A stretch of DNA of 40,997 nt from a virus (IMGVR_UViG_3300030406_002338:1-40997); one strand, 5' to 3'; counted from the stretch's first letter, positions 10,920 through 40,262 are shown. Program-made: numbers and translations. The notes: generated by a model from the sequence alone, not told the origin.

Positions 10920-10979
10920 GTTTTCTCCTATATTTTAGTTTACGGGTTTTATATACACCCCGCGATCAGTCGAAAATAT

Positions 10980-11387: not shown

Positions 11388-11398
11388 ATATCCTCCTA

Positions 11399-12277: not shown

Positions 12278-12289
12278 ATCTGTATCTCC

Positions 12290-27993: not shown

Positions 27994-28030
27994 ACTGACC
28001 ATAGTGCAATAAGTTGCGTCCTCTTTACTA

Positions 28031-28050
28031 CTATATGTTTACACATATAG
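28031..28050. promoter_or_regulatory. operator-like inverted repeat in the divergent control region
   Basis: The arms CTATATGT and ACATATAG match perfectly around TTAC. ACTATATGT, which contains the left arm, recurs at 29576-29584 inside the second promoter element. The site lies between the leftward terminase genes and the rightward early genes, where a regulator would control the switch. No repressor gene was recognised in the window, so the binding protein is unknown. Confidence 0.5.
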
Positions 28051-28062
28051 ATAGTAATTTTT

Positions 28063-28099
28063 AACATAATGTAAATACCTAAAGGTATTGACATATGTT
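28063..28099. promoter_or_regulatory. large imperfect inverted repeat overlapping the -35 of the first rightward promoter
   Basis: The arms pair as AACATA, TGT and AATACC with GGTATT, ACA and TATGTT. There is one bulge (28069), one mismatch (28073 with 28090) and a TAAA centre (28080-28083). The promoter -35 (TTGACA, 28088-28093) lies inside the right arm. The second promoter at 29573 has the same arrangement, which argues for a real control site instead of chance. It could be a repressor operator or an RNA hairpin formed by read-through transcripts. Confidence 0.55.
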
Positions 28100-28114
28100 A
28101 TATGGTGTTATAGC
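28088..28114 (+). promoter_or_regulatory. rightward early promoter 1
   Basis: TTGACA (28088-28093) and TATAGC (28109-28114) are separated by 15 bases. The ten bases GGTGTTATAG (28104-28113) recur at the same distance from the -35 in the promoter at 29573, so the pair defines a phage-specific early promoter type. GGTGTTAT repeats again at 28117-28124. Transcription would start near 28121 and read the lysine-rich gene at 28181. Confidence 0.65.
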
Positions 28115-28180
28115 TTGGTGTTATCGGTCAATCGGATCGGTGTAAACAAGTCGGTGCTAAAGCACCAAAGGAGAAATTCC

Positions 28181-28786
28181 ATGCCTACAACTAAAGTTGT
28201 AAGAACTAGACTCAATAACAGACAAGTAAGCTACGCAGTAGCTAAGCATAACGGACACAAAGTCCCTAAGGACTTCAAGGACTGGACTTGGAAAACTGCC
28301 TTATCTTTCCTTAATGGAAAGACTAAGAAAGCCAAACTCGCTCGTGTAGACTTTGAAAAAGTCGCTGGTTATCCTGTTCCTGACGGCTCTTTCAGAGACC
28401 TGATTACAGGTAGAGTTACTAAAGTAACTAAGACCAAGACTTCCAAGAAGTCAAAGACTTCTACTACTACTACCAAAAAGCCAAAGGCTTCCAAGAGTAG
28501 TAAAAAGAACGGCAAGGTTGTAACTGTAAAGCAACCCATCAAAGATGGAATTGACTACAAGAGACTAGCACGAGAGATCGTAAAAGCCCAAGCCTCAGAG
28601 AAATCTGAGGCAGAGGCTAGAGCCTCTAAAGAGGCTATCGATCGCTACACATCTGAGATGGAGATCAAGAGGTTGGGATGGTCATCCCAATTCAAATCAG
28701 AGGATAAGGCTATAAAGCCTTCTCATGTATGGGTCAAGGGCGAGGATGACATTCTCCCTAGAGGAGAGGATCTACTTAAAAAGTAG
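28181..28786 (+). CDS. lysine-rich protein of unknown function, first early gene
   Basis: The start at 28181 is chosen because AAAGGAG lies eight bases upstream and begins a coherent protein (MPTTKVVRTRLNNRQVSYAV). The longer frame from 28088 would begin inside the promoter. The 201 residues comprise a small N-terminal domain (about 1-85, with DFKDWTWKTALSFLNGK and YPVPDGSFRDLITGR), a Lys/Thr/Ser linker (about 86-125), and a helical C-terminal part (DYKRLAREIVKAQASEKSEA). The composition suggests nucleic-acid or host-polymerase binding in early takeover, which is inference. A GGTGC-TAAA-GCACC palindrome (28153-28166) sits just before the ribosome site. Several mutually exclusive hairpins fall in the coding sequence. 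Confidence 0.75.
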   Translation: MPTTKVVRTRLNNRQVSYAVAKHNGHKVPKDFKDWTWKTALSFLNGKTKKAKLARVDFEKVAGYPVPDGSFRDLITGRVTKVTKTKTSKKSKTSTTTTKKPKASKSSKKNGKVVTVKQPIKDGIDYKRLAREIVKAQASEKSEAEARASKEAIDRYTSEMEIKRLGWSSQFKSEDKAIKPSHVWVKGEDDILPRGEDLLKK

Positions 28787-28816
28787 AACAGTATTTATCG
28801 CTCCTGAACATGAGCC

Positions 28817-28922
28817 TAAACTGTTCACAGTTTAACCAACTGCTCCACAGATGTGTGTCTGTGCTGATGATGACTCTAAAGAGTCGAAAGCAGAAAACTA
28901 AGACAAGTCTCGCATGAGCGAG
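28817..28922 (+). ncRNA. cluster of four consecutive hairpins in the gap before the next gene
   Basis: The 150-base gap 28787-28936 contains four perfect stems in a row: TAAACTGT/ACAGTTTA (28817-28834), CACAGA/TCTGTG (28846-28863), GACTC-TAAA-GAGTC (28872-28885) and CTCGC-ATGA-GCGAG (28909-28922). The last ends immediately before the ribosome site of the gene at 28937. No U-run follows any of them, so simple termination is unlikely. A structured leader or stability element is more likely. No tRNA cloverleaf could be fitted. Confidence 0.45.
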
Positions 28923-28936
28923 GAAAGGAAATTTCT

Positions 28937-29179
28937 ATGAAATTTAAAAGAACCGACTTATATCTTCCAAGTGAGGAAGATACATTTCAGACGTACGAGG
29001 AATACACCGAATGGCAAGATCTTTCTGAAGATCTTATCCAAGAGTTGCATTGTTGCATCAAAGATGCTTATGAGGTTGCTCCAGTGGATCACTCGTACAC
29101 ATGCGAGGAGATTGAAACCTTAGCAATTAAATTTTATGAACTTGGTAAAGTTCATGGCAAACAAGCCTCACACAAGTGA
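28937..29179 (+). CDS. 80-residue acidic protein of unknown function
   Basis: The ATG follows GAGGAAAGGAAATTTCT. The protein is acidic, with YLPSEEDTFQTYEEYTEWQD near the N-terminus and a cysteine pair (LHCCIKDAYEVAPVDHSYTC, about residues 38-57). The C-terminal helix ends in LGKVHGKQASHK. Two hairpins lie inside the frame (29016-29035 and 29136-29155). The gene is followed within 15 bases by the next start. No family is recognised. Confidence 0.65.
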   Translation: MKFKRTDLYLPSEEDTFQTYEEYTEWQDLSEDLIQELHCCIKDAYEVAPVDHSYTCEEIETLAIKFYELGKVHGKQASHK

Positions 29180-29193
29180 GAAAGGAACCTAAA

Positions 29194-29538
29194 ATGTTAA
29201 CTAACATTTTATACAAATCAAAATTAGCCTATCGGCTATACATAAAATTCTCAAAACACTACTCACGAGCGATTGATTTTCTTAGAAGAAAATTAAACGA
29301 CTCAATCATAGCGATCGATAGAATCGATCCTTGTGCATTGGACTCGGACATGCGTGAGTACAGATCCATGCGATCGCTTGGGATCACATGGGAGCAAGTT
29401 GATACTCTTTCAGAGTATAACAGGAATGAGATATTTGAAGTCTTTGACTTCATCATAAGCGAGAAGAAAGATTGGAATACTAAGTGTAACTCTTGTTACC
29501 AAGAGATTAAACCTTTAGCAAAGGCGGTAGTTAAATAA
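29194..29538 (+). CDS. 114-residue basic helical protein of unknown function
   Basis: The ATG at 29194 has GAAAGGAACC upstream. A GTG at 29176 in the same frame would place the ribosome site inside the protein. The sequence is helical with aromatic and basic residues (YKSKLAYRLYIKFSKHYSRA), then acidic, ending with a Cys-X2-Cys pair (TKCNSCYQE). The start codon is inside a 10-base-arm palindrome (29190-29211), so initiation may depend on opening that structure. The function is unknown. Confidence 0.65.
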   Translation: MLTNILYKSKLAYRLYIKFSKHYSRAIDFLRRKLNDSIIAIDRIDPCALDSDMREYRSMRSLGITWEQVDTLSEYNRNEIFEVFDFIISEKKDWNTKCNSCYQEIKPLAKAVVK

Positions 29539-29547
29539 ATTTAACTA
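29528..29547 (+). terminator. AT-rich hairpin at the end of the 114-residue gene
   Basis: TAGTTAAAT and ATTTAACTA form nine perfect pairs around AA, covering the stop codon (29536-29538). There is no U-tract and no GC in the upper stem, so termination would be weak. It may stabilise the 3' end before the second early promoter. Confidence 0.35.
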
Positions 29548-29550
29548 AAC

Positions 29551-29585
29551 TACATATCGTCAAATGTTAAATTTGACTATATGTA
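29551..29585. promoter_or_regulatory. 15-base-arm inverted repeat overlapping the -35 of promoter 2
   Basis: TACATAT and GTCAAAT on the left pair with ATTTGAC and ATATGTA on the right. One mismatch (29558 with 29578) separates the two halves and the centre is GTTAA. The promoter -35 (TTGACT) lies in the right arm. The layout parallels the palindrome at promoter 1, so one regulator could act on both. The long perfect halves make chance unlikely. Confidence 0.6.
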
Positions 29586-29599
29586 TAGGGTGTTATAGT
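29573..29599 (+). promoter_or_regulatory. rightward early promoter 2
   Basis: TTGACT (29573-29578) and TATAGT (29594-29599) are 15 bases apart. GGTGTTATAG (29589-29598) is identical to promoter 1 at the same offset. A TGTTAT follows at 29601-29606, as at promoter 1. It would start transcripts near 29606 for the genes from 29685 onward. Confidence 0.65.
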
Positions 29600-29684
29600 C
29601 TGTTATTGTCGAGTTTCAGCTTGACACCAAAACAAACAAGTTTCGATAAGTGCATACGATTGCACTAGCGAGAAAGAGGTAATC

Positions 29685-29873
29685 ATGGATATTTATCCAT
29701 CAGCGATTGAGATCGCAGAACTAATTGACGCTCATGAGGGAGCAGTCAAGGGTGTGTGGAAAGATGACGAACTAACTCCAGAGGAGTTAAAACAACTAGA
29801 CCGAGACACAATCTCGGACGATCACATGGACAGGCACGATCACTTGTCCGATCAGGAGGACACAGATGGGTAA
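29685..29873 (+). CDS. 62-residue acidic protein of unknown function
   Basis: AGAAAGAGGTAATC precedes the ATG. The protein is rich in Asp, Glu and His, ending in SDDHMDRHDHLSDQEDTDG, which might bind metal but matches no motif that I know. The last eight bases overlap the following gene. It is the first gene after promoter 2. A hairpin AACTCC-AGA-GGAGTT, extended to seven pairs (29773-29789), lies in the frame. Confidence 0.6.
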   Translation: MDIYPSAIEIAELIDAHEGAVKGVWKDDELTPEELKQLDRDTISDDHMDRHDHLSDQEDTDG

Positions 29874-30285
29874 CAGAGCAGTCATTCAAATTGAAAACGA
29901 TCCATTGGAGATTTATCTCCATTGGAATGGTGGTAGAGATAGCATTGAGCCAATGCTAGATTACGCAAGAGAGCAAGGTATTCGCTCAGGCGACTATGGA
30001 GTCGCAAGACTTTGCCAAATTATTGGCAATACTCTCGGTGGTACGCTTAGTTTAGGAGTTGCTCCTAAAGGTTCGTACTTAGGCGATGAGGACAATGGAA
30101 CTTATGTAATAGACAATGAGTTCAACATAGTTGGTCGTAAAGGGTTGCCTGTTGGATTTACAGAGCAATCTGTATATCCATACGAGGACATGCTCAGAGT
30201 TGTGCGAGACAAAAATGATAAACATTTTCAGTCTGCTCTCGGAGAACTGCGATCACACAGTAAGAAAGTAGGTAGCCATGAATAG
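29866..30285 (+). CDS. MGNRAVI-type conserved phage/plasmid protein
   Basis: The 139-residue protein opens MGNRAVIQIENDPLEIYLHW, then NGGRDSIEPMLDYARE, and contains DYGVARLCQIIGNTLGGTLS near residues 44-63. I recognise this as a common uncharacterised family of phages, plasmids and integrative elements. Conserved traits include the LHWNGG motif, the (I/L)GN.(F/L)GG.LS segment and a (D/N)NG.Y(V/I)I strand. The biochemical role is unknown to me. Hairpins TTGCCAA/TTGGCAA (30012-30029) and TTTAGGAG/CTCCTAAA (30051-30069) sit in conserved codons, so the structure has been kept alongside a constrained protein. Confidence 0.75.
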   Translation: MGNRAVIQIENDPLEIYLHWNGGRDSIEPMLDYAREQGIRSGDYGVARLCQIIGNTLGGTLSLGVAPKGSYLGDEDNGTYVIDNEFNIVGRKGLPVGFTEQSVYPYEDMLRVVRDKNDKHFQSALGELRSHSKKVGSHE

Positions 30286-30466
30286 GTTTGACATCAGGTG
30301 TGTGTTCTGTAACGAACTCACATGGGCAATCAGACGAGCGAGAGACGGCAGACCATATGTCTGCGGAATGGGCAACAATCCCTCTCCTGTTAAGGAGCAT
30401 GGAAGATGTTGCGACAAATGTAACGAGGACATAGTCCTAGTTGCTAGGATGGGAGCGTTAGCATGA
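30278..30466 (+). CDS. 62-residue zinc-finger-like protein
   Basis: Cysteines are placed as CVFC (about residues 8-11), a single Cys in YVCGMG, and CCDKC (about 44-48), so a small zinc-binding fold of ribbon or treble-clef type is likely. The start overlaps the previous gene by eight bases, and the stop shares bases with the next ATG. Such a protein could bind DNA or a host protein. The function is unknown. Confidence 0.6.
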   Translation: MNRFDIRCVFCNELTWAIRRARDGRPYVCGMGNNPSPVKEHGRCCDKCNEDIVLVARMGALA

Positions 30467-30657
30467 GCGATAGAGAGAAACTTACAAAGTGGCTTTTAGA
30501 CTTGTACGAACAAGAATGGGAAGATGCTGAGTCGTCTCAGACTTACATAAACGAACTCCTGTATCTGTACAGACATGGGATCAAGGGTTTAGAAAGCTAC
30601 ACCACAGAGGAACTACAAAGATTTGTAGATGAAAAACAACAAGAATTATCGGAGTAG
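30463..30657 (+). CDS. 64-residue helical acidic protein of unknown function
   Basis: The protein is one or two amphipathic helices (LTKWLLDLYEQEWEDAESSQ and YTTEELQRFVDEKQQELSE). The ribosome site GGGAG precedes an ATG that overlaps the previous stop codon. No family is recognised. A CTACAAA/TTTGTAG hairpin (30613-30628) is encoded by its last third. Confidence 0.6.
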   Translation: MSDREKLTKWLLDLYEQEWEDAESSQTYINELLYLYRHGIKGLESYTTEELQRFVDEKQQELSE

Positions 30658-30661
30658 TGCT

Positions 30662-30874
30662 ATGCGAGTTTTTGAGATCACAATAGACGAGAGCGATTGG
30701 GATGACATCCGATCGCTCATGCGATCTAAGAAAGCTTTTAATCTAAAGATTAATGGCGAGTTGTTCGAGATTAGATATGATCGGGCAACTGCTAATTATT
30801 ACGGATGGATCAGCGATGCAAATTTCGTAGAAATTAGCGACTTATTACCAAAACGATTACTCACAGGAGTGTGA
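30662..30874 (+). CDS. 70-residue protein of unknown function
   Basis: I chose the ATG at 30662 because CGGAG lies seven bases upstream. The frame is open from 30629, but that start overlaps the previous gene. The sequence reads as a compact beta-alpha-beta fold (MRVFEITIDESDWDDIRSLM, then NLKINGELFEIRYDRATANY). It is followed after three bases by another small gene. A perfect TTAATC-TAAA-GATTAA stem (30738-30753) is encoded in it. Confidence 0.6.
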   Translation: MRVFEITIDESDWDDIRSLMRSKKAFNLKINGELFEIRYDRATANYYGWISDANFVEISDLLPKRLLTGV

Positions 30875-30877
30875 ACA

Positions 30878-31030
30878 ATGAATGAATTATTCTACGAATG
30901 GCTTGAGAACAACGCACAAGCGTGGTACAAGCGAGGATTACAATCAATGGACATTGATGTTTTTACAGAAAATGGGGAACACGAAGTTATAGTTAAATAT
31001 AACTTTGGCGAAATTAAGGAGCAAAGCTAA
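30878..31030 (+). CDS. 50-residue protein of unknown function
   Basis: The open frame reads MNELFYEWLENNAQAWYKRG and ends in IVKYNFGEIKEQS. CACAGGAGTG precedes the ATG. The stop TAA shares its final A with the ATG of the pyrimidine-dimer-glycosylase-like gene, so translation is probably coupled. It resembles the fold pattern of the 70-residue neighbour (a helix then two strands). An AAGTTATA/TATAACTT hairpin (30984-31005) falls in its second half. Confidence 0.6.
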   Translation: MNELFYEWLENNAQAWYKRGLQSMDIDVFTENGEHEVIVKYNFGEIKEQS

Positions 31031-31446
31031 TGCAAACATTTTTACCATATGAAAATATGAGCGAGTCGGTTGCGTGCTTAGATACCAAGCGACTTGGCAA
31101 ACAACGAGTTGAGGCTCTGCAAGTGTATAACATAATCACAGGTGCGTTGACCAAGAAAGGTAAACCTTACAAAGGTTTCGTCAATCATCCTGTTGTAAAC
31201 ATTTGGAGAGACCATGTTGACGCTCTAGCGTTGTACACCAACCTGTGCATATTAGAGTGGATGGCAAGAGGTTATGAAAATACTATGGAGTATTTACCGA
31301 TTGGAAATGGAATCACGCTACCAAATTTATTTGGTAACAAAAAATTTCATGACTCGCACAAGAGTAACCTATTACGCAAGGACGAGGAACACTATGGTCA
31401 GTTCGGATGGAATGTACCTACTGACATGCCATATGTGTGGACATAG
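31030..31446 (+). CDS. pyrimidine-dimer DNA glycosylase-like protein (MSMEG_6728 type)
   Basis: The 138 residues match the pattern that I associate with the pyrimidine-dimer glycosylase family. The N-terminus is MQTFLPYENMSESVACLDTK, followed by RLGKQRVEALQVYN, then FVNHPVVNIWRDHVDALALY (about residues 50-69). The C-terminal block reads FHDSHKSNLLRKDEEHYGQF plus GW, and closes with DMPYVW. Family members remove UV dimers by base excision. That role would suit a surface-water phage, but I cannot confirm the catalytic residues here. A bacterial-type (not T4 denV-type) version is likely. It ends the gene block served by promoter 2. Confidence 0.7.
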   Translation: MQTFLPYENMSESVACLDTKRLGKQRVEALQVYNIITGALTKKGKPYKGFVNHPVVNIWRDHVDALALYTNLCILEWMARGYENTMEYLPIGNGITLPNLFGNKKFHDSHKSNLLRKDEEHYGQFGWNVPTDMPYVWT

Positions 31447-31456
31447 GGAGTTGGAT

Positions 31457-31486
31457 TTGACATCCTGTTGCAGATGGTTATATAAT
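31457..31486 (+). promoter_or_regulatory. near-consensus sigma70 promoter
   Basis: TTGACA (31457-31462) and TATAAT (31481-31486) are both perfect, with an 18-base spacer. This is the strongest promoter in the window. It starts near 31493 and would read the SAP/AAA/VWA gene block beginning at 31537. It has no palindrome of the kind seen at promoters 1 and 2, so it may be constitutive. Confidence 0.75.
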
Positions 31487-31536
31487 AAGTATGTGGTTGT
31501 CGATTTGGCAATCACAAACAAGTCAAAGGAGTTACA

Positions 31537-31818
31537 ATGGCGATTTCTAAATCTGAAAGACGACATTTGTATGCACAATTGCTTGGCGTAGATGTATCAG
31601 GCAAGAGTGGTAAAGAGTTGCACCAAATGGTCAAAGACCATAAAGATGGTTCGCAACTTGAGAAGATTGCTGACAAAGTAATCGAAAAACTAAGCACAGA
31701 CTCAAACGCTGAGGAGCGTGTAAAGAATGTGTTGGGCGAGGTGTTAGAGGAATTATCATCAGATGATGATGATGAAAGTAAAACAAGTTCAGACGCTAAA
31801 GAGCATGCAGTAGCATAG
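31537..31818 (+). CDS. 93-residue acidic protein with a SAP-like N-terminus
   Basis: AAAGGAG lies five bases upstream of the ATG. Residues 1-35 read ISKSERRHLYAQLLGVDVSG, then KSGKELHQMVKDHKDG, which is a helix-turn-helix-like pair similar to SAP/HeH motifs that bind nucleic acid. The C-terminus is a long acidic, serine-rich tail (ELSSDDDDESKTSSDAKEHA). It is the first gene after the strong promoter and precedes the AAA+ ATPase block. Function as an adaptor is inference. Confidence 0.6.
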   Translation: MAISKSERRHLYAQLLGVDVSGKSGKELHQMVKDHKDGSQLEKIADKVIEKLSTDSNAEERVKNVLGEVLEELSSDDDDESKTSSDAKEHAVA

Positions 31819-31842
31819 CTTGAGCGAGAGAGAGGACACGAC

Positions 31843-32553
31843 ATGGCAGACATGAAAGTAAATAAAATTACTATATCTAACGATATAGTACAGAGTCTAT
31901 TAGACGCACATCAGCGAGAGGGTCAGATGACTCAAACGCTTATGGATAACATGCACAGAGCATTTTCACATCTTACAGATGTTGACAACGCAGTTGTGCT
32001 ATGGGAAATGACAACAACTTGTCCATGCAAATTGGAGACTAAACTTGTTCTCAAAGAGAATGAGGGTGGTATGAATTGGAACATACAAGTGTGTGATCTC
32101 TGTGATTATGATCGCAGTGCCTTGAGAGCCGACAACATCTCAGATGCGATAGGTAGAACCTTATCAGCTTGGACGAACTCAGTTGGTAAGAAACATCTTA
32201 TCAAGGCTATCGCACGAGAGACAGGTAGTGATGTCAATGACATAGGTGTTTCAAGCGATCCTGACTCAATGGAATTGATAAGATTCCAAGATAAGAAAGT
32301 TAAGCTATACGAAAACTCTTTAAGAGTTTGTGTAGACATGCTAGACGATCTCATAAGCATGATCGATAGAAAACGACTAAGCAAAGATAACTTTGCTAAG
32401 TTGCAAGACATACTTATGACTAAGGGAGCAATTATTGCTCACATCTTCAACGAGGGGATCATAGATCCAAACAAACAAGCAAGTGCGAAAGATGTCGCAC
32501 GTAAACTAATCGATTCTATCGATGGCGAAAGTGAGGGAAAAAATGCCAATTAA
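31843..32553 (+). CDS. 236-residue protein with a Cys4 zinc site
   Basis: The first 50 residues are helical (VQSLLDAHQREGQMTQTLMD). A zinc site follows with CPC near residues 60-62 and CDLC near 86-89, in TTTCPCKLETKLVLKENEGG and NIQVCDLCDYDRSALRAD. The rest (about 95-236) is helical, ending in an acidic tail. It overlaps the AAA+ gene by 11 bases. No family is recognised. Its place just before the ATPase suggests a substrate adaptor, which is inference. Confidence 0.65.
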   Translation: MADMKVNKITISNDIVQSLLDAHQREGQMTQTLMDNMHRAFSHLTDVDNAVVLWEMTTTCPCKLETKLVLKENEGGMNWNIQVCDLCDYDRSALRADNISDAIGRTLSAWTNSVGKKHLIKAIARETGSDVNDIGVSSDPDSMELIRFQDKKVKLYENSLRVCVDMLDDLISMIDRKRLSKDNFAKLQDILMTKGAIIAHIFNEGIIDPNKQASAKDVARKLIDSIDGESEGKNAN

Positions 32554-33508
32554 TGAATCAGAAATAGATAAGTTGATAAAACAACTTAAACAACAGGATA
32601 AGACTCCTGTTGCAACTAAAACACCTAAGCCTAAGGCTCAAAAGCCTAGTAGGTCGGGCAAGTGGAAAGACGCACCATCGTGGTTCTTTCCAAGTAAGTA
32701 TGGCGAACAGGTCGCTGACGAACTTGAGGTGTTCATCAAAAACAGGACACCTGTGATGTGTATCGGTGGCACAGGTCTTGGTAAGACTGTGATCACAGAC
32801 ATGATCGCAAGAAAGCTAGGTCGCGGTAGCGTTGGATTCAACTGCTATTCAGGTATGGACATAGCATCGCTTGTGGGATTGTGGTTGCCTCACAAGGGCG
32901 ATGTCATTTGGAATCATGGTATTGTTACCGATGCCATTATTAAAGGTTTCATTCTCAGAATTGAGGAATGGACGAGGTGTACACCTGAACTAAAATCTAA
33001 GATGTTTGGAGTCATGGACTCCAAAGATAGATATTGGGCGTTGCCTGAGGCTAAGATCGACAAAGTCGATGTTCATGAGAACTTCACTATTGTCGCTAGT
33101 GCGAATCCTGCGGGCAAGGGTTACGTAGGTACCATGAGAGAGGACAAGGCTACTATGTCTCGGTTCGGTGCGGTCATTGAAATCAATGAGCCACTAGCAA
33201 ACGAGGGCAAAGCTATGCTTAACGCAACTGATAACAATCATGATCTATCCCAAAGGATAGTCAGATTCGCAGAGTTGTGCAGAAAGGATGCTCTCACGTA
33301 CGTATCTACAAGAGACATCTACTACCTCGCTACTGCGATCAAATCAGGATTAGATCCTAAAAGAGCAGTCGAGGTTACAATCGCACCTAAGTTCGAGGGT
33401 ATGGAGTCTGCGATAATCACGCATGGTCGATCTGTATTCGAGGACATGGGTAAGGAAACAAAAACTGACACAGTCAGTTCAGTAGCGAAAGGAAAGACTG
33501 ATGCCTAG
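32543..33508 (+). CDS. MoxR/CobS-like AAA+ ATPase
   Basis: I chose the ATG at 32543 because GTGAGGG lies just upstream. An alternative ATG at 32522 would add seven residues. Walker A is GGTGLGKT (residues 75-82). The Walker B strand is FILRIEEWTR, where an Asp-Glu pair is usually expected. Sensor 1 reads TIVASANPAGKGYVGT, and an arginine-finger candidate sits in ATMSRFGAVIEIN. This follows the MoxR/CobS class, whose members pair with VWA-domain proteins as chaperone-like or chelatase-like assemblies. The next gene, overlapping by eight bases, encodes exactly such a VWA partner. A cobaltochelatase large subunit is not present. Confidence 0.8.
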   Translation: MPINESEIDKLIKQLKQQDKTPVATKTPKPKAQKPSRSGKWKDAPSWFFPSKYGEQVADELEVFIKNRTPVMCIGGTGLGKTVITDMIARKLGRGSVGFNCYSGMDIASLVGLWLPHKGDVIWNHGIVTDAIIKGFILRIEEWTRCTPELKSKMFGVMDSKDRYWALPEAKIDKVDVHENFTIVASANPAGKGYVGTMREDKATMSRFGAVIEINEPLANEGKAMLNATDNNHDLSQRIVRFAELCRKDALTYVSTRDIYYLATAIKSGLDPKRAVEVTIAPKFEGMESAIITHGRSVFEDMGKETKTDTVSSVAKGKTDA

Positions 33509-35315
33509 ACGAAATACATGGAAATCAGACAAGCGTGCTAACGATCATTCATCTGTTTTATCCAACGCAGTTGGTAAAAAGATTGAGGTTGTTAACACAA
33601 GATCTAAAGATAGAGGTGTTGATGGTGTCATCGCACCTGAGCGAGGTAAATACGTTAGAAGATCTAACGAGTCATTTGAGACTACGCTTACGACTGCTAT
33701 GCGTGGCAAGAGCGAGATTGACTTTACTTTCGCAAGAGAGGTTCTGCATAACGCTATGGACATATACAGACGCAAGTGGAAAGACTACAACGATGACAGA
33801 GAGGCAAGGTTTGGTTTGCCGAGATACGAGCCTGTCGTGATACTGCGTGCGACTCAGGATGCAAAACATGCATCAACTGATTTGCATCAATACCTAGATA
33901 CGCTAAGGTGTGCTACCAAAGCTAACGAGTTCTTTTACAGAACTGATTGTGTTGACAACGCAGTTGATAGCATTATCAAGTCTATCAGGATCGCATGTGC
34001 GAGGATGGATACTGACCCTTTAACGGAGAAAGTATACCACTTTATGTCGATGTTGTTTGGAACAGTAGTTCCAACACCTAAATGGCACAAGGACGTAGTA
34101 GATGTGGCTATCAAATGGACAAGAGCGACTTACGATATGATAGATAATGGTAACGCAAAAGATTGCGTTAATGTTAGTATAGGTATCGCAATCGATCTTA
34201 TGCATCTGCTAACACCTAAGGACGCACCACCGCCACCACCACCATCGGACGATCCACCTGAGGATCCAAGCGATGAGGAAAGTGATGAGCAAAGCGATGG
34301 TGATGGTAATCCATCAGATGATGTTGATGTCAACAATCCTGACACACCATCAGACAAGCCTGAGGACGAACCTGATGATGAAAGTGAACCTACAGAACCT
34401 GACACAGGTAGCACAGATGTGAATCAGTCAGGCGATATACAGGATTCAGGGTCTGAGCCATTTGACATAGATACTGAGTTAGAGACTATGCTTAATAAAG
34501 CAGAGGAAGATACTCAAACAAAACTAGAGGCAAGTGAGAGTTTCGCTAGCGATGATGTTCAAACATTTGACAGATCAGACGATGGCGTAAAGCACGAGAC
34601 TACGATCAGAACCTACAAGATGGAGCCAATGACCGCAGACGCGAATGTTGTCAACTTGTTGCAAGATACAACAAGAATGGGTATGGCTCACAGGCACAGA
34701 ACAGGTATGCCAACAACTGATACATGGAAAATATCTGCTCTTGGAGATACCAAAGTATTTGGTAGATCAGATCATCGTAGTGGCAAGCTTGTCATACTGT
34801 TTGATTTATCAGGATCTATGGATTTCTATTCCTCGAAAGAGGTAGGGAGTAAATCCTACTTAGCAGTTCAGTCGGGTCTTGCATTGCAAGAGGCGTTCCC
34901 ACAAGCAGAGACTTATGGTTTCGTATCTGACGATAAGACTAACTACATTGTTCCAATGGAGACAGGGATGTTCCCAACTTCCAAGTCATACTTTGATGGC
35001 ATGGGTCATGGCAATCCTGACTGTGTTGCGCTCTTGTACTTAGAGGAACTGCTACAGGGTCAGTTGCAAGATAGCATGGCTATCGTGATCTCAGATGGCT
35101 CTCCATGTGGACCCGCACCAATGCGAGATTCGCACATGATTAGCCATACAAGACAACTTGCTAACAAGTTGTACAACGATGGTCTAAGGTTTGCATCGGT
35201 TTTGATCAATACAGGATCAACTATTTATCCTAGCGATGTAGTCGCTCACGTGAGAGAGATAAATGACATCTACAATATCGGAGAGGTTATACATCGTGTT
35301 GGACAACAATTCTAG
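33501..35315 (+). CDS. CobT-like protein with acidic linker and VWA domain
   Basis: This 604-residue protein has three parts. Residues 1-245 are a helical N-terminal region. Residues about 246-320 are a proline- then Asp/Glu-rich linker (PPPPPPSDDPPEDPSDEESD). Residues about 425-604 form a von Willebrand A domain. The MIDAS motif is DLSGSM at 435-440, preceded by GKLVILF, and further strands include SMAIVISDGSP and YNDGLRFASVLINTG. The same order is known for CobT of aerobic cobaltochelatase, which works with CobS. With the AAA+ gene at 32543 this forms a two-component machine. Its substrate in the phage is unknown. Confidence 0.75.
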   Translation: MPRRNTWKSDKRANDHSSVLSNAVGKKIEVVNTRSKDRGVDGVIAPERGKYVRRSNESFETTLTTAMRGKSEIDFTFAREVLHNAMDIYRRKWKDYNDDREARFGLPRYEPVVILRATQDAKHASTDLHQYLDTLRCATKANEFFYRTDCVDNAVDSIIKSIRIACARMDTDPLTEKVYHFMSMLFGTVVPTPKWHKDVVDVAIKWTRATYDMIDNGNAKDCVNVSIGIAIDLMHLLTPKDAPPPPPPSDDPPEDPSDEESDEQSDGDGNPSDDVDVNNPDTPSDKPEDEPDDESEPTEPDTGSTDVNQSGDIQDSGSEPFDIDTELETMLNKAEEDTQTKLEASESFASDDVQTFDRSDDGVKHETTIRTYKMEPMTADANVVNLLQDTTRMGMAHRHRTGMPTTDTWKISALGDTKVFGRSDHRSGKLVILFDLSGSMDFYSSKEVGSKSYLAVQSGLALQEAFPQAETYGFVSDDKTNYIVPMETGMFPTSKSYFDGMGHGNPDCVALLYLEELLQGQLQDSMAIVISDGSPCGPAPMRDSHMISHTRQLANKLYNDGLRFASVLINTGSTIYPSDVVAHVREINDIYNIGEVIHRVGQQF

Positions 35316-35345
35316 TCGTAAGACTATACAAGTCAAGGAGCATAC

Positions 35346-35993
35346 ATGGCTACAGAGACAACGGCACTACAAGTGCCAAAGCAAAACTTGCACGAAGTTG
35401 TCGTGCGAATTATAGGTACTAGCGAACTAATTGTTCACAAGTTTAGTGCCAAGTCAATCAAACAGATTGAAGATATACAGGCTAAGAAAGCTAAGACAAA
35501 GTCTAAGCGTAAGCCTGAGGACGAATACAATGACTGTTTTTACAGATGGGCAGATGGCAATCAAGACGCAGACAAGGGCGATCACAAGTGGGATGGTAAA
35601 TCTACAGGTGTTCCCTCTATAGCGATCAAGAAAGCAATGGTCGGTGCATGTAGACAAGTCGACATGCCAATGACACTTGCGAGACAAGCATTTCATGTAC
35701 AGGGTTCGGTACTCAAGATCGAGAACGCAGAACCATACATGCGAACAGACCATGTCAGGATTGGTGTAAAGCAGACTGACGTGCGATACAGACCATCTTA
35801 TCCTATCGGTTGGTCAGTTGATGTACCAATTGTTTACGATGCTGATGTAATCAGCATAGAACAGTTACTCAACCTGATCGAGAGAGCGGGGTTTAGTGTT
35901 GGCTTGTGCGAACACAGACCTGAGAAAGATGGCGACAAAGGAATGTTTAAGTTAGACTTATCTAAAGACTTAGAGGACAAACCTCTAAGTTGA
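35346..35993 (+). CDS. conserved phage protein (LIVHKFS...IRYRxxYPIGWSV type), role unknown
   Basis: The 215 residues show HEVVVRIIGTSELIVHKFSA (about 16-35), a charged helix KQIEDIQAKKAKTKSKRKPE, a centre with GVPSIAIKKAMVGACRQVDM (about 88-107), and FHVQGSVLKI. They also show VRIGVKQTDVRYRPSYPIGW (about 137-156) and a C-terminal EQLLNLIERAGFSVGLCEHR (about 174-193). I recall this arrangement from uncharacterised proteins in many siphovirus genomes near replication genes. A DNA-associated role is inferred from the neighbours only. Its last codons form a nine-base-arm hairpin (35968-35990) just before the stop. Confidence 0.7.
   Translation: MATETTALQVPKQNLHEVVVRIIGTSELIVHKFSAKSIKQIEDIQAKKAKTKSKRKPEDEYNDCFYRWADGNQDADKGDHKWDGKSTGVPSIAIKKAMVGACRQVDMPMTLARQAFHVQGSVLKIENAEPYMRTDHVRIGVKQTDVRYRPSYPIGWSVDVPIVYDADVISIEQLLNLIERAGFSVGLCEHRPEKDGDKGMFKLDLSKDLEDKPLS
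35968..35990 (+). terminator. terminator-like hairpin covering the end of the 215-residue gene
   Basis: ACTTAGAGG and CCTCTAAGT are perfect complements with an ACAAA loop, ending one base before the stop codon. The nine-pair stem is the strongest in this part of the operon and divides the AAA/VWA block from the gene-free stretch that follows. There is no U-run, so attenuation or RNA processing is as likely as termination. Confidence 0.4.
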
Positions 35994-36003
35994 TCCTTAT
36001 TCG

Positions 36004-36059
36004 GAGAGGTGCGGGTGCGTTTTTCCCTCCAAGAAAAAGTTACACCGCTCGCACTTCTC
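36004..36059 (+). ncRNA. nested three-stem RNA hairpin with a CCUCCAA loop
   Basis: Stem 1 is ten pairs: GAGAGGTGCG (36004-36013) with CGCACTTCTC (36050-36059), one G-T pair. Stem 2 is GGTG (36014-36017) with CACC (36043-36046), with GCT bulged. Stem 3 is TTTTTC (36020-36025) with GAAAAA (36033-36038), closed by the loop CCTCCAA. CCTCC is the anti-Shine-Dalgarno sequence of 16S rRNA, so the loop could pair with ribosome sites of phage messages. It follows the 215-residue gene by 10 bases and would be transcribed with it. No ORF explains it. Confidence 0.5.
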
Positions 36060-36074
36060 TTACATGTAACGTGC

Positions 36075-36176
36075 ATGCAAGTAGTCGGAGCAGTCAAGAT
36101 TGACGCTCATTTAATTCCAGACAACGCAGAAACAACAACCATAGGTTGCGATGTGATCAGTAAAACAAACTATTGA
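36075..36176 (+). CDS. possible 33-residue protein (weak)
   Basis: The frame reads MQVVGAVKIDAHLIPDNAET and ends in DVISKTNY. It looks protein-like (alternating hydrophobic and polar residues, then a strand), but there is no ribosome site upstream. It may be the remnant of a longer gene. It lies between the three-stem hairpin and the G array. I give it only as a possibility. Confidence 0.25.
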   Translation: MQVVGAVKIDAHLIPDNAETTTIGCDVISKTNY

Positions 36177-36286
36177 CTGTTTAATTAAAATGCTGATCTT
36201 TCCGCAATCATGGGTAGGAACGCTGAACATAAAACAATGTTAAGAACTACCAAAAACTGGAAAGGTAGTCGCTTGCATGACTACAT

Positions 36287-36770
36287 GGCAGACAGGGCGA
36301 GTAAGGTTATGATTTGATATGGAGTGTCGGGCGATGGCAGATGGGGTAAGATCCGTAGAGGCGGGGAATGGTTGGTTAGTTTTAGGAGAGTTATGGCAGA
36401 TGCGGTCAGGTAAGTTACGTTAGTTTGTGTACAGGTGTGTTCAGGATATGGCAGACGTGGTTCGTACGGGCGTAGTCGGAAATGTTACGTTTCGGTAAGG
36501 CAGACGAGGCTTGTAGAGTTAAGGTCAGGTGCGTTACTGAGAGTTAAGTTGCGGTAAGGCAGATGGGTCAAGGTATGGTGCATCGGGGTTGGAATGGTAG
36601 CGGTAAGGCAGACGAGGTTAGGTCAGTAAGGGCGCAGTATGATGCGTTATGGAGAGTTTTGGCAGACAAGGTCGGGCTTGAATGGGAGCGTTGAGTATGG
36701 TTTCGGTAAGTTATGGTAAGCGCAGACGGGGTTTGAATGGTCGGGTTACGATATGTTTCGATATGGCTTG
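36287..36770 (+). repeat. 5-base-periodic G array with GGCAG phase markers
   Basis: Starting at 36291, G occupies every fifth base on the plus strand for about 480 bases: 92 of 98 phase positions. At seven of nine GGCAG/CGCAG markers the phase steps by four instead of five (first G to last G of GGCAG). The markers start at 36287, 36336, 36395, 36450, 36499, 36558, 36607, 36661 and 36721 (the last is CGCAG, no shift). Spacings are 49, 59, 55, 49, 59, 49, 54 and 60, that is mostly 5n-1 with n of 10 to 12. GGCAGAC/TGNGG is the broader repeat. C makes up about 10% of bases. The six misses fall one per module from 36340 to 36660. No coding potential is visible. Confidence 0.9.
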
Positions 36771-36777
36771 ATTTTAC

Positions 36778-36798
36778 AGGTATCATGTGATACCTTTT
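36778..36798 (+). terminator. perfect palindrome plus T-run at the 3' edge of the G array
   Basis: AGGTATCA-TG-TGATACCT is an 18-base perfect palindrome, followed by TTT. It ends the gene-free stretch 27 bases before the next gene. As RNA it would be a moderate stem with a short U-tract, so a weak terminator that defines the 3' end of a transcript of the array is possible. As DNA it may be a dimer binding site. Confidence 0.45.
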
Positions 36799-36824
36799 AA
36801 CAATAAACAAGTAAAGGACAAATT

Positions 36825-37334
36825 ATGAAATTTGTATGGGGAGACAATCCCTTTCTCAGTACAGAGGGTATACGCGATTTAGATCCGCAGATAATAGGCG
36901 AGCGAATCGAGTTCTTGCTCTCTACTCATGGAAACAAGCTTACTCCTGAGGTTCTTGTGCGAGATGCACAAAATGTAGAGAGTCCGCTTAATCCTATATT
37001 TGCAGAGCATGTAAGTAGTAAGGCACACAAGTGGGATCTCAACATAGCTAGGAACGTCATGAGTGGGTTGCGTGTTATCTTCGTCAACGAAAGCGGAGAC
37101 GAGGACACGAAATACGCTCTTATGAGCGTCAGGAATGAGGATGATGGCAGAAAGAGAGAGTACAGGCACATCAACATAGTTGAGTCAGATGACGATGTGA
37201 GAGCGAGTGTAACTCGTGATGTCATATCTCAGCTAAAATCAATCAACAATAGGTATTCATACCTAAAATCTATTGGACCTCTCACACGTGCGATAGATGA
37301 AATGGAAGAAATGGATGAAGATGGAAACGAATAA
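36825..37334 (+). CDS. 169-residue conserved phage protein (LTPExLVxxAxxxxSPL type)
   Basis: AAAGGA precedes the ATG, which lies in the loop of an ACAAATT/AATTTGT hairpin (36818-36835). Residues 38-62 read GNKLTPEVLVRDAQNVESPL, then NPIFAEHVSSKAHKWDLNIA and RNVMSGLRVIF. I recall this pattern (a helix, SPLH.xFxW-like block and AR.L...V strand) from small unnamed phage proteins near replication modules. It starts the replication block. Its function is unknown, and its place suggests a role in DNA replication or recombination. Confidence 0.65.
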   Translation: MKFVWGDNPFLSTEGIRDLDPQIIGERIEFLLSTHGNKLTPEVLVRDAQNVESPLNPIFAEHVSSKAHKWDLNIARNVMSGLRVIFVNESGDEDTKYALMSVRNEDDGRKREYRHINIVESDDDVRASVTRDVISQLKSINNRYSYLKSIGPLTRAIDEMEEMDEDGNE

Positions 37335-37749
37335 GATTGACGCAATCTTGTCTGAGTACGAGGTTCTAGGCGTACAAATACAGGCGCTACAGAAGAAGAA
37401 AGATGAATTAGAGGCTATGATCTACATGGAACTAGACTCTCGCTCGTCTGACACAAACTGGGCAACTGTGTTGAAAGGCAAGGATTACGAGGCTAAGCGT
37501 TCGTCTAAGTCGTCTATAGACGTTGATGACTTGCGCTATATCGCAGAGGAGTGGATGGATGACGAGGAACTAGACCGATGCATCAGGAAAGCACGAACAA
37601 GGATAGTCGAAGAACCTGAGCGTGTGATGATGACTGAGGTAAAAAAATTAAAGAAACAAGGTGGCGAACTTGCTGACTACATCGAAAAGATGACTAAGAG
37701 AGTAAGTAGTGGCATCAAAATAAAAAGGATAAACAATGGACAAGATTAA
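37315..37749 (+). CDS. coiled-coil protein in the replication block
   Basis: The start at 37315 is preceded by GGAAG at six bases. ATG codons at 37297 and 37321 in the same frame are alternatives. The 144 residues start with a coiled coil (EYEVLGVQIQALQKKKDELE) and continue with a helical domain containing DVDDLRYIAEEWMDDEELDR, then a basic C-terminus (KRVSSGIKIKRINNG). It lies between the 169-residue gene and the annealing-type gene, overlapping by 20 and 14 bases. It resembles small partner proteins of annealing proteins or nucleases in arrangement only. Its function is unknown. Confidence 0.6.
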   Translation: MKMETNKIDAILSEYEVLGVQIQALQKKKDELEAMIYMELDSRSSDTNWATVLKGKDYEAKRSSKSSIDVDDLRYIAEEWMDDEELDRCIRKARTRIVEEPERVMMTEVKKLKKQGGELADYIEKMTKRVSSGIKIKRINNGQD

Positions 37750-38557
37750 AGGATTAGAACTTGCAGAGAGTATCAGGCAAGAAATGGTCAAAGATATTGA
37801 CTACACAACGATAGCACACATGCAAAAGCCATTCTTAACGCAATCAGGTGCGTCTAAATTGGCAGAAGGTTTTGGCTACAAAGCTGAGCTAGCGGACGTG
37901 CGAGAGTACAACACAGATAGTGGAGAGTGTAGGATTACAGTCATACTAAACATAATAGACATTGTGTCTAACGATTGTATCTCAGGTGCAATTGGCACAT
38001 GGGATTCGTCAGAGCGTGGGTCATCTGAGAGGCAAAGAGGCATGCAGATGGCGTACAAGAGGGCATACGTTATGGGTATGAGATACGCTACTTTCTCACA
38101 CGAGTTGTTCACACAAGACGAGGACATTGTCAGAGCAGACATGGAATCGCAGTCAGCACCTACAAGAGTGGTTGTTAACGAGGACACAGGCGAGAAGAAA
38201 GAGGTTAAGAACATTTTTGAAATGGAATGGGATAAATCTAAGGACGATTATGTGTTCACAAGATATGGTGCAAAAGTTAAAGGCAAGACTGTAAAAGAGG
38301 CTTACTTTGATTCAAACGTAGGCAAGGGTTACCTTGAATGGATATTGAACTTAGGTTCAGATCCTAGCAAGACTGACAATCAGGGCAATCCTGAGAAACC
38401 ATGTAGCATGGGATTGAGAGAGTTGATTGTAAAAACAATCAATGACATCAACTCAGGCGTGGCAGATGAACCTGAACAAAAGGTCGCTCCTGAGAAACCT
38501 GATACACCTGACATAGACACAATCGCACAAGTGAACTATGAGAACAGGAGTACATAA
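37736..38557 (+). CDS. single-strand-annealing-like recombination protein
   Basis: AAAGGATAAACA precedes the ATG. The 273-residue protein has DIDYTTIAHMQKPFLTQSGA (about 20-39) followed by SKLAEGFGYKAEL. Then GMQMAYKRAYVMGMRYATFS (about 102-121) ends with HELFTQDED. The order "lysine-Pro, SGA-KL, K-RAY(V), LFTQDED" is what I associate with Rad52/Sak-like phage annealing proteins. The C-terminal third is proline-rich and disordered. It would coat and anneal single-stranded DNA during phage replication. The call is by pattern and by neighbours (initiator, loader, nuclease), so it needs a profile search. Confidence 0.5.
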   Translation: MDKIKGLELAESIRQEMVKDIDYTTIAHMQKPFLTQSGASKLAEGFGYKAELADVREYNTDSGECRITVILNIIDIVSNDCISGAIGTWDSSERGSSERQRGMQMAYKRAYVMGMRYATFSHELFTQDEDIVRADMESQSAPTRVVVNEDTGEKKEVKNIFEMEWDKSKDDYVFTRYGAKVKGKTVKEAYFDSNVGKGYLEWILNLGSDPSKTDNQGNPEKPCSMGLRELIVKTINDINSGVADEPEQKVAPEKPDTPDIDTIAQVNYENRST

Positions 38558-38558
38558 T

Positions 38559-38819
38559 ATGAGCGAGGTAAGAAGATTAAGTACAAAAGAGTTTACCTCT
38601 GAGTACGCTAAGAGGGTTGGCGCTCAAGACTACCTTACTAGCGTGCGAGAAATGTCTGTGGGGATGACACTTGCTATCCCCGCAGATGGCAAAGCAGAGG
38701 CACGCAGAAAGCAACATGGCATAATCAATGACGCGAGTAGGCGTAGAAAAGCAGGACAGATGGTTAGGTTTCAGACTATTCTCAAAGAGAAAGAGGTTTG
38801 GGTTAGGCGGATAGAGTGA
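38559..38819 (+). CDS. 86-residue basic protein, replication block
   Basis: The ATG at 38559 is preceded by AGGAG at nine bases. A longer frame from 38538 overlaps the previous gene. The protein is basic at the C-terminus (KQHGIINDASRRRKAGQMVR, then LKEKEVWVRRIE) with an N-terminal REMSVGMTLAIPADGKAEAR. The stop TGA overlaps the GTG start of the initiator gene. Its function is unknown; DNA binding is likely from charge. Confidence 0.6.
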   Translation: MSEVRRLSTKEFTSEYAKRVGAQDYLTSVREMSVGMTLAIPADGKAEARRKQHGIINDASRRRKAGQMVRFQTILKEKEVWVRRIE

Positions 38820-39523
38820 GTCTGAAAGCAATCACATGGGCGTGGGAGCAGAGAGAGATCGCGTCTAGTCAGAAAATTGTACTGCTCGCACTTGCGGATC
38901 ACGCAAGAGAGTGCGGTTGTTGTTTTCCTAGCACTAAATTCATAGCTGAAAAGTGTGGCATGAAACAGAGAATGGCTCAGTATCATGTCAAGAATCTTGA
39001 AAAGCTTGGCTATCTCACACGAGTGAAGTCAAAAGCTAAGAGATTGAAAACAGATGGGTTCAAGTTATTACTTGACAATCCGAAAGAATGTAGTGCAACT
39101 GGTTGCGTTATTGGGGTGCATCCCATTGCGCCGACCATATCTATATCTAAAGATATAGATATTAAGAAACGTAAAATAGAAACTACAGCGACAGCACCAG
39201 AGTGGTTGTCATTAGTTGACAACGATGGAACATTAGTCAATAATGTTTCACATCCCAAAATACAAGAGTATGTCTCCGACATCGAAAGTGATTACGTTGG
39301 AGTTGACTTAGTCGCAGAGGCTAAGAAATACAAGTTGTGGTGGGAAGGCAAGAAAGCAAAGAAACCGAAACTAGCCTTCAGAAATTGGCTAGAGAAAGCG
39401 AAAGAGAACTATGGAGAATCTAAAAGACGAGTTTCAAAAGGTATCGCGACAGAGGTCAGCACAACGATCGATAAGCGAACTAGAGAACTCTCCGAAAGAC
39501 AAAGAAAATCAAAATCCCGATAG
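38816..39523 (+). CDS. winged-helix replication initiator / replisome organiser-like protein
   Basis: The gene starts with GTG overlapping the previous stop (GTGA), which couples translation. Residues 1-65 form a winged helix (SSQKIVLLALADHARECGCC, then STKFIAEKCGMKQRMAQYHV). The C-terminal half contains AEAKKYKLWWEGKKAKKPKL then AFRNWLEKA (about 176-205), the sort of "W...K...F..WL.KA" tail seen in phage replisome organisers such as the gpO and DnaD-like group. The next gene is a DnaC-like loader. Together these would melt the origin and load host DnaB. The final 113 bases overlap that gene. An 11-base-arm hairpin (39137-39162) lies between the two domains. Confidence 0.7.
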   Translation: MSLKAITWAWEQREIASSQKIVLLALADHARECGCCFPSTKFIAEKCGMKQRMAQYHVKNLEKLGYLTRVKSKAKRLKTDGFKLLLDNPKECSATGCVIGVHPIAPTISISKDIDIKKRKIETTATAPEWLSLVDNDGTLVNNVSHPKIQEYVSDIESDYVGVDLVAEAKKYKLWWEGKKAKKPKLAFRNWLEKAKENYGESKRRVSKGIATEVSTTIDKRTRELSERQRKSKSR

Positions 39524-40262
39524 CGGAAAAGTTACTAAACGACTAGCAGACCTTGCGAGAGAGTATATCGCTCGCGGGGTTTGCAACTGTGAGGGTCTAG
39601 GATGGGTAGCATTTAACTTCCATGTCGATCACCCTGACTTTGGCAAGTATGCACAATGCGTTTGCATGAAGAAGAACTCACGCGAACTGCTTGTAAAAGC
39701 GTCAAACTTGCAGAACTACGAGGAAAAGAGGTTTAGTGATTACAACACTAAGCTTATCGAGAATGGCGAATACGTGCTAGACACATGCTTTAAGTGGGCA
39801 GATCAGCAGAACGAACCATTCATAACTCTTTATGGAACAACAGGAGTTGGTAAGACACATTTAGCGCTGGCATCTGCCTGGATGGTGTTGAACAGGATGA
39901 ATCAAGCAGTATTGTTCGCACAAGCGAGTGATTTGATCAGGGAACTGCAAACAAGCATGAGTTCAGGCAACCTAAACAAAGAGGTTCATAAATACAAGAG
40001 CGCAAAAAATCTCGTCTTAGACGACTTGGGTAGGGAGTACACGACTGATTGGACAACATCGATTTTTCACGAGATAATAGACTACAGATACAGAAACCAT
40101 GAACTGCGTACATTCGTTACGACTAACCATTCCATTGATGAACTCAACAAGATCGTTGGCGTACCCGTTGTAAGCAGACTTACAGACGCTTTCAAAGGCA
40201 ATTTCATAGCCATAGAGGGCGAAGATGTAAGACCGAGATTAATGGAGATAAAAGATGGATAA
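39411..40262 (+). CDS. DnaC-like helicase-loader ATPase
   Basis: The 283-residue protein has CNC near residue 58 and CVC near 83, typical of loaders of this type. Walker A is GTTGVGKT (residues 142-149), preceded by PFITLY. Walker B is LVLDDLGRE (about 201-209). Sensor-type TFVTTNHS and a VSRLTDAFK arginine-finger region follow. It is AAA+ and would place the host DnaB helicase at the phage origin together with the initiator. GAAAGAG precedes the ATG. No ATG, GTG or TTG lies in frame between the overlap end (39523) and the zinc site, so the 113-base overlap seems genuine. Confidence 0.8.
   Translation: MENLKDEFQKVSRQRSAQRSISELENSPKDKENQNPDSGKVTKRLADLAREYIARGVCNCEGLGWVAFNFHVDHPDFGKYAQCVCMKKNSRELLVKASNLQNYEEKRFSDYNTKLIENGEYVLDTCFKWADQQNEPFITLYGTTGVGKTHLALASAWMVLNRMNQAVLFAQASDLIRELQTSMSSGNLNKEVHKYKSAKNLVLDDLGREYTTDWTTSIFHEIIDYRYRNHELRTFVTTNHSIDELNKIVGVPVVSRLTDAFKGNFIAIEGEDVRPRLMEIKDG

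Follow-up and report, generated by a model that had tools for sequence, protein, structure and literature searches.

The rightward genes of a viral DNA of 40,997 nucleotides (IMGVR_UViG_3300030406_002338; the whole stretch is called the window hereafter) carry an array of short, perfect inverted repeats whose excess is real and exceptional. An exhaustive scan of the window for perfect arms of at least 7 bases and loops of 0–10 finds 63 repeats in 28181–40262 and 65 in 28001–40262 (5.3/kb), against 36 (1.3/kb) in the leftward part, 1–28000. The favored account, with a probability of roughly 0.45, is that the early operon is a dense array of short hairpins kept by selection, with arms that drift and co-vary, most likely acting as DNA hairpins or else as strict RNA hairpins. 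It builds on direct observations, namely the excess and its limits, the synonymous constraint in the arms, the compensatory changes, the confinement to a single clade and a single transcription unit, and the gradient from the promoter.

Excess of Perfect Inverted Repeats

An earlier note on this DNA had counted by eye 35 perfect repeats with arms of 7–11 bases. The abundance and the short perfect arms hold, but the count was too low (the scan gives 63 in the same interval) and the longest arm is of 12 bases (39137–39162). Shuffling of synonymous codons, which preserves both protein and codon usage, was taken as the null model. With arms of at least 7 bases, the rightward genes have 58 repeats, when 9.7 are expected and the maximum among 60 shuffles is 22; with arms of at least 8, they have 21 when 2.6 are expected. 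The leftward genes are close to expectation (36 versus 25.7 and 6 versus 7.3, respectively). For coding sequence of the right arm and loops of 1–6, one finds 56 repeats against 6.5 ± 2.4 (maximum 17 in 1000 shuffles), so that the excess in the early genes is about ninefold over the prediction from protein content and codon use. A shuffle preserving the next base gives, for the same class, a mean of 14.4 and a maximum of 25. Shuffling the order of codons instead of synonymous codons gives 3.7; hence, the protein sequence itself may add slightly to the number of repeats. The excess thus survived both checks by which the earlier note could have been refuted, codon shuffles and the density of the leftward arm, and its remarks that most repeats lie in coding sequence and that the leftward arm is sparse are also correct.

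Anatomy of the Hairpins

The excess is limited to loops of 1–6 bases, with none for loops of 0 or of 7 and more, and for arms of at least 6 it peaks at loops of 3 (27 versus 3.5) and 4 (23 versus 4.0). Stems are mostly of 6–8 perfect Watson-Crick pairs and loops mostly of 2–5 bases. The probability of stem extension is about 0.55 per pair up to 6–7 pairs and then 0.36, nearer background. Enrichment grows with predicted stability: it concerns only stems below about −3 kcal/mol, weak stems having no excess, and between −9 and −7 kcal/mol there are 21 hairpins when 1.8 are expected. Stems with a single G-T pair are scarce beside perfect ones (8 versus 28 at 8 bp), and the spacing of the hairpins is no more regular than random.

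The loops are A-rich. Among the unique hairpins of six relatives, and taking 2-nt loops with their closing pair, TAAA accounts for 23 of the 109 four-base loops, when shuffles predict 6.5%, which agrees with the recurrence of TAAA loops seen by eye. TTTA is found twice, the over-use being specific to the sense strand, and CTAAAG is the preferred, recurring form. Apart from CTAAAG, the arms are unrelated across the full list of repeats, with no shared arm sequence of the kind found in repetitive extragenic palindromes (REP) or miniature inverted-repeat transposable elements (MITE), and a search with the covariance models of Rfam gives 0 matches at the gathering score. The hairpins do not behave as intrinsic terminators (a G+C-rich stem plus a T run in sense), as only one of the nine terminator-like sites between 27900 and 32000 is on the + strand. 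These nine sites, when 3.1 are expected, lie in eight cases on the minus strand, antisense to the early genes.

Distribution along the Rightward Arm

From 28 kb onward, the number of repeats per kilobase is 14, 13, 5, 6, 5, 4, 4, 3, 2, 2, 1, 4, and 1. The first 2 kb thus hold 27 repeats, and the density declines to 1–2/kb beyond 36 kb, away from a putative early promoter at 28088, which the dense end adjoins; the earlier note did not mention this gradient. Two hairpins lie upstream of this promoter (28031–28050 and 28074–28089) and may be off the rightward transcript; a leftward transcript could carry them. The main features are the following.

28181..40262, +: hairpin-rich rightward arm, 63 repeats, densest at 28.0–30.0 kb
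28031..28050, upstream of the early promoter: hairpin ctatatgt-TTAC-acatatag, 8 bp; homologues GATATGGT..ACCATATC (L019) and GGGATATGTT..AACATACCC (L021)
28074..28089, touching the −35 box: hairpin aatacct-AA-aggtatt, 7 bp; compensatory aatatct/agatatt in L017
28088..28112, +: putative early promoter TTGACATATGTTATATGGTGTTATA, conserved in the alignment of relatives
28153..28166, +: leader hairpin GGTGCTAAAGCACC, immediately 5′ of the first gene's ribosome-binding site
28181..28786, +: first rightward gene, 201 amino acids, no known family, 8 repeats with arms of at least 7
28186..28201, +: hairpin tacaact-AA-agttgta, TAAA loop (repeat scan)
28592..28611, +: hairpin gcctcaga-GAAA-tctgaggc, 8 bp (repeat scan)
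28929..28945, +: hairpin aaatttc-TAT-gaaattt, containing the start codon of gene 28937–29179
29190..29211, +: hairpin taaaatgtta-AC-taacatttta, 10 bp, including the ATG at 29194
29559..29577: hairpin gtcaaat-GTTAA-atttgac, its 3′ arm including the −35 TTGAC of the second promoter
29573..29597, +: second putative early promoter TTGACTATATGTATAGGGTGTTATA, similar to the sequence at 28088
31457..31486, +: sigma-70-type promoter match, 12/12 to the consensus (TTGACA-18-TATAAT)
31869..31890, +: hairpin tactatatc-TAAC-gatatagta, 9 bp (repeat scan)
32522..33508, +: AAA ATPase (CobS/CbbQ-like), where the folding excess is stronger than anywhere else in the arm (z −7.3 sense, −8.1 antisense)
35968..35990, +: hairpin acttagagg-ACAAA-cctctaagt, 9 bp (repeat scan)
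39137..39162, +: longest hairpin atatctatatct-AA-agatatagatat, 12 bp, TAAA loop (repeat scan)

The first rightward gene is also present in the hairpin-rich relatives. The structure predicted for its product is of low confidence (predicted local distance difference test [pLDDT] 59, predicted template-modeling score [pTM] 0.33) and was not used.

Evolution of the Arms

The evolutionary comparison covers six related right arms. Where a codon keeps its first two bases, the third position changes less within hairpin arms than outside them (0.018 versus 0.043 in G002, 0.043 versus 0.112 in L017, 0.081 versus 0.162 in L018). When stratified by codon and pooled, synonymous change in arms has an odds ratio (OR) of 0.35 (24 versus 47.9 changes, p 2e-5), in which pairs are not fully independent (L017 and L018); G002 alone gives p 0.033. 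No constraint is seen for inverted repeats spaced by 30–59 bases (OR 1.16), and the 25-base flanks change at 0.082 when arms change at 0.037. In close relatives, the total number of substitutions in arms is 210 when 481 are expected, i.e., about 0.44 of the outside rate.

Clear double changes, in which both arms differ and still pair, include AGCCTCTAAAGAGGCT/AGCTTCTAAAGAAGCT, GACTTTGAAAAAGTC/GAGTTCAAGGAACTC, and CACAGATGTGTGTCTGTG/TTCGGATGCGTGTCCGAA; the double change AGTTACTAAAGTAACT/AGTTGCTAAAGCAACT involves two amino-acid changes. Counterparts in relatives are given below for individual hairpins, all on the + strand.

28349..28363: gacttt-GAA-aaagtc; in L019 gagttc-AAG-gaactc, two compensatory pairs, amino acids altered
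28414..28429: agttact-AA-agtaact; in L019 agttgct-AA-agcaact, with the amino-acid changes Thr to Ala and Val to Ala
28621..28636: agcctct-AA-agaggct; in L017 and L018 agcttct-AA-agaagct, both changes synonymous
28673..28690: ttgggatg-GT-catcccaa, 8 bp; in L019 a different hairpin, Ser codons AGT AGC replacing TCA TCC
28846..28863: cacaga-TGTGTG-tctgtg; in L019 ttcgga-TGCGTG-tccgaa, three compensatory pairs
28909..28922: CTCGC-ATGA-GCGAG, immediately 5′ of a ribosome-binding site; in L018 longer, CTCGCAC-AA-GTGCGAG
29276..29293: attttctt-AG-aagaaaat, 8 bp; in L018 atttcctt-AG-aaggaaat
33005..33025: tttggagtc-ATG-gactccaaa, 9 bp, in the ATPase gene; in G002 tttggaatc-ATG-gattccaaa

Because of the synonymous constraint in arms and of the compensatory pairs, selection acting on the complementarity of the arms is the best-supported cause of the stems. 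If selection for strict complementarity is confirmed, phage coding sequence would be under a constraint at the level of nucleotides, not of proteins, that is measurable in relatives. The clade offers a natural test case of whether compensatory hairpin evolution proceeds by selection or by template switching.

RNA or DNA Hairpins

The first cause offered by the earlier note was selection for local RNA structure. In an account of this kind, hairpins in early mRNA would serve as a shield against nucleases, limit R-loops, or pace ribosomes, and selection would be strongest close to the promoter, the site of the highest transcript abundance. It is a rather unlikely explanation, to which several observations nonetheless lend themselves: the restriction of the hairpins to a single transcription unit, along which they thin out from the promoter, the A-rich loops and the sense-oriented TAAA loop, the hairpins immediately before several ribosome-binding sites, the climb of enrichment with predicted RNA stability, and a sense strand more structured than its synonymous shuffles (z −12.4). 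For hairpins of the window itself, breaks to G-T are also slightly above those to A-C (0.51 versus 0.30).

If the sense RNA were the target, one would expect changes leaving G-U (C to T, A to G) to be tolerated more readily than the mirror-image changes. In close pairs, relative to the outside rate, stem breaks leaving G-U occur at 0.37, those leaving A-C at 0.29, and transversions at 0.37; the distinct breaks over all close pairs are 25 and 24 for G-U and A-C, respectively. In distant pairs, the values are 0.45 for G-U and 0.62 for A-C. The wobble signature of a sense RNA, sought in near-perfect stems, by a next-pair test, in distinct breaks, and in rate-normalized breaks, is not clear. An early pooled wobble ratio of 50:28 was dropped as evidence, since it is 20:14 among distinct events. 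The rarity of stems with one G-T pair points in the same direction, and sense folding is no more extreme than antisense folding, for which z is −13.3. The folding excess of the leftward arm is milder and biased toward the sense strand (−7.4 versus −4.9). In the head-protein region (10143–13075, − strand), the folding excess leans toward the sense strand (sense z −3.1 to −4.6), whereas in the right arm it is strand-symmetric.

Two further features fit mRNA structure poorly, the pair of hairpins upstream of the early promoter and the overlap of some hairpins with start codons. Start codons lie within the hairpins at 28929–28945, 29190–29211, 29685–29700, and 36818–36835, which contrasts with double-stranded DNA (dsDNA) viruses in general, where structure around start codons is usually reduced (PMC3072339).

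Given that G-U is tolerated no better than A-C, we infer that it is the Watson-Crick complementarity of the arms that is read. Such strictness, unexpected for plain mRNA folding, points to hairpins in DNA or to some other strict reader. Hence, a Watson-Crick-strict, probably DNA-level reading is slightly preferred over mRNA structure. Of the earlier proposal, the selection is retained (OR 0.35, compensatory pairs), whereas the RNA part is not supported, given the similar tolerance of G-U and A-C and the similar z of the two strands.

In the array of hairpins kept by selection, the hairpins would be held in place while their arm sequences drift and co-vary. They would most likely work as DNA hairpins, formed when the region is single-stranded or as cruciforms, or else as RNA hairpins under an unusually strict rule. 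New perfect stems may be furnished by template switching during replication and then retained by selection, and a candidate task is the protection or organization of the early region at the time of entry, transcription, or replication. A narrower version, where the early region is a selected field of Watson-Crick-only DNA fold-backs and coding sequence is at the same time a series of short DNA hairpins, is conceivable but doubtful. Such a field could serve a single-stranded stage (entry, replication, or damage bypass templated by the sister arm) or a structure-specific factor, and it would be an information layer on phage DNA beyond codon, motif, and RNA fold.

Several results weigh against a selected array read mostly as DNA. 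Repeats with loops of 12–29 have an OR of 0.47 (p 0.07), and in the leftward arm, where hairpins are mostly due to chance, the synonymous rate is also low (4/96 versus 310/2985); part of the constraint may therefore be generic. For distant pairs, the total divergence in arms comes close to the rate outside them, these comparisons being less informative because of saturation and alignment. Longer stems are still more enriched at equal predicted energy, a pattern that template switching could also produce. The hairpins immediately 5′ of several ribosome-binding sites look RNA-like, the strand-specific TAAA loop fits RNA, and no molecule reading DNA hairpins was identified.

Selection or Conversion

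The second cause offered by the earlier note, a mutation bias alone, is improbable. Under it, template switching from arm to arm, perhaps associated with transcription or R-loops, would perfect imperfect repeats that have no function. This would account for stems that are strictly Watson-Crick with few imperfect ones, and for some transversion double changes and the serine swap between TCA TCC and AGT AGC at 28673–28690. Template switching is known to create and maintain hairpins (PMC8794818), and conversion is one of the causes proposed for the perfect coding inverted repeats of Nematomorpha mitochondria (PMC6649704). However, conversion would either erase or double each new mutation, and total arm divergence should thus stay unchanged, whereas both the total and the synonymous change are reduced in arms. 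Changes in one arm only are not in excess either (22 versus 18.7 expected from matched control windows with equal numbers of changes, z 1.05; 5 versus 6.4 among close relatives only), and a raw excess of one-sided changes seen by eye vanished against these controls. Loop orientation seems to be preserved, as indicated by the counts of TAAA and TTTA. The near-palindromic pairs GTCAAATAGTATATTTGAC/GTCAAATACTATATTTGAC and CCTAAAGG/CCTTTAGG are possible cases of loop inversion; the single flagged case resembles an alignment artifact. Stems are capped near 7–8 bp instead of growing, and within the same genome the leftward arm lacks the excess. The comparison of relatives suggested in the earlier note thus reveals compensatory pairs and no surplus of one-sided changes. 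The reduced arm divergence in close relatives and the lack of such a surplus argue against conversion acting by itself, although template switching may still supply stems.

A by-product of the composition or codon usage of a purine-rich, moderate-GC coding strand has almost no probability, since the right arm indeed has positive GC and AT skews but synonymous shuffles with the same codon usage and protein rule out both uniform-random and compositional explanations, and GC-matched contigs reach at most 1.8/kb versus 5.1 here.

Hairpins in Other Viruses and Known Systems

The dense-hairpin trait is shared only by close relatives. Hairpin-rich right arms are found in relatives with 91–100% terminase identity, whereas the clade at 65–68% has 0.5–3.6/kb upstream of the terminase gene. 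Across 224 viral contigs (2.06 Mb, retrieved via unrelated polymerase motifs), the pooled observed/expected count is 959/757, the top density 2.2/kb, and the densest 2 kb hold at most 7 repeats, versus 27 here. T7, T4, lambda, HTVC010P, HMO-2011, and P-SSP7 have 0.1–1.1/kb, and the literature searched contained no description of a dsDNA phage with such hairpins. A more distant relative (L055, 52% identity in the large terminase subunit) has its own dense hairpin region at 3075–6274 (reverse-complement coordinates), mostly non-coding and built from repeated arms, e.g., GATTTGCC-CCAA-GGCAAATC. It was rejected as an independent case of the trait, the hairpin set being different, repeated, and largely non-coding.

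Phage N4 uses short-stem, small-loop hairpins of its early region as promoters for a virion RNA polymerase, and its first 12 kb (L071, 1–12000) have 1.8/kb, a threefold excess over synonymous shuffles (14 versus 4.7). In the window, unlike in N4, hairpins number dozens with arms of unrelated sequence, a consensus sigma-70-type promoter is present, and the giant protein shows neither a polymerase motif nor a match to any family. RNA viruses have genome-scale ordered RNA structure, pervasive through coding regions, as a property of RNA genomes; here coding regions are also covered, but by short local hairpins, in a dsDNA phage and equally on both strands.

Three published systems offer further comparisons. 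The mitochondrial genes of Nematomorpha (PMC6649704) have many perfect coding inverted repeats, gained and lost between relatives, with few imperfect ones, but those are mitochondrial and reach 284 bp, whereas here arms are of 6–12 bp with loops of 2–5, within a single dsDNA-phage operon where synonymous constraint in arms has been measured. The RNA hairpins made by template switching (PMC8794818) share short perfect stems and compensatory double changes; the phage differs in lacking a one-sided excess and in having its stems mostly in coding sequence, not in RNA genes. The CUUCGG hairpins known from phages such as T4, one of which stabilizes a T4 transcript (PMC8948821), are also numerous and short, occur in phage transcripts, and favor one loop. 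They are mainly intergenic, with a common CUUCGG and G-U allowed, whereas the present set is mostly intragenic, with CTAAAG preferred and Watson-Crick stems.

Genome Context and Other Features

The left arm encodes small and large terminase subunits, a major head protein, and a protein of 3034 amino acids, as expected of a tailed phage. The right arm encodes a pyrimidine-dimer glycosylase, the CobS/CbbQ-like ATPase, an O-like replication initiator, and a DnaC-like loader. A megablast search against isolated phages gives no match. Relatives of the terminase (40–44%) occur in three Chloroflexota/Dehalococcoidia genome bins (L197, L198, and L199), which weakly hints at a host in this group; the hint is weak because the nearest terminases of isolated phages (~27%) are from actinophages. 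The source of the virus is presumably marine, judging from the metagenome identifiers.

The 3034-amino-acid protein (13121–22225, − strand) has zero cysteines and is only 44–50% alike among otherwise close relatives. It has no match in Pfam or PDB and none of the motifs HD, R...K......YG, or T..GR. A virion RNA polymerase identity found no support, polymerase motifs and family matches being missing.

The −35 TTGAC of the early promoters overlaps an inverted repeat (28074–28089, 29559–29577, and the homologues in L019 and L021). The arms of this repeat vary yet remain complementary (GTCAACTA..TAGTTGAC, GTCAAGT..ACTTGAC, GTCAAAT..ATTTGAC), and it could be an operator. A leader motif, ACAAGT, is found shortly 5′ of ribosome-binding sites (28146, 28903, 29636, 31518, 35328, and 36807), often followed by a hairpin; the right arm has 18 ACAAGT when about 5 are expected. 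Finally, 36200–36800 is a G-rich non-coding stretch of imperfect repeats of GGTAAGGCAGAYGNGG, with five 27-base units plus partial copies, and may be an origin of replication or a structured RNA.

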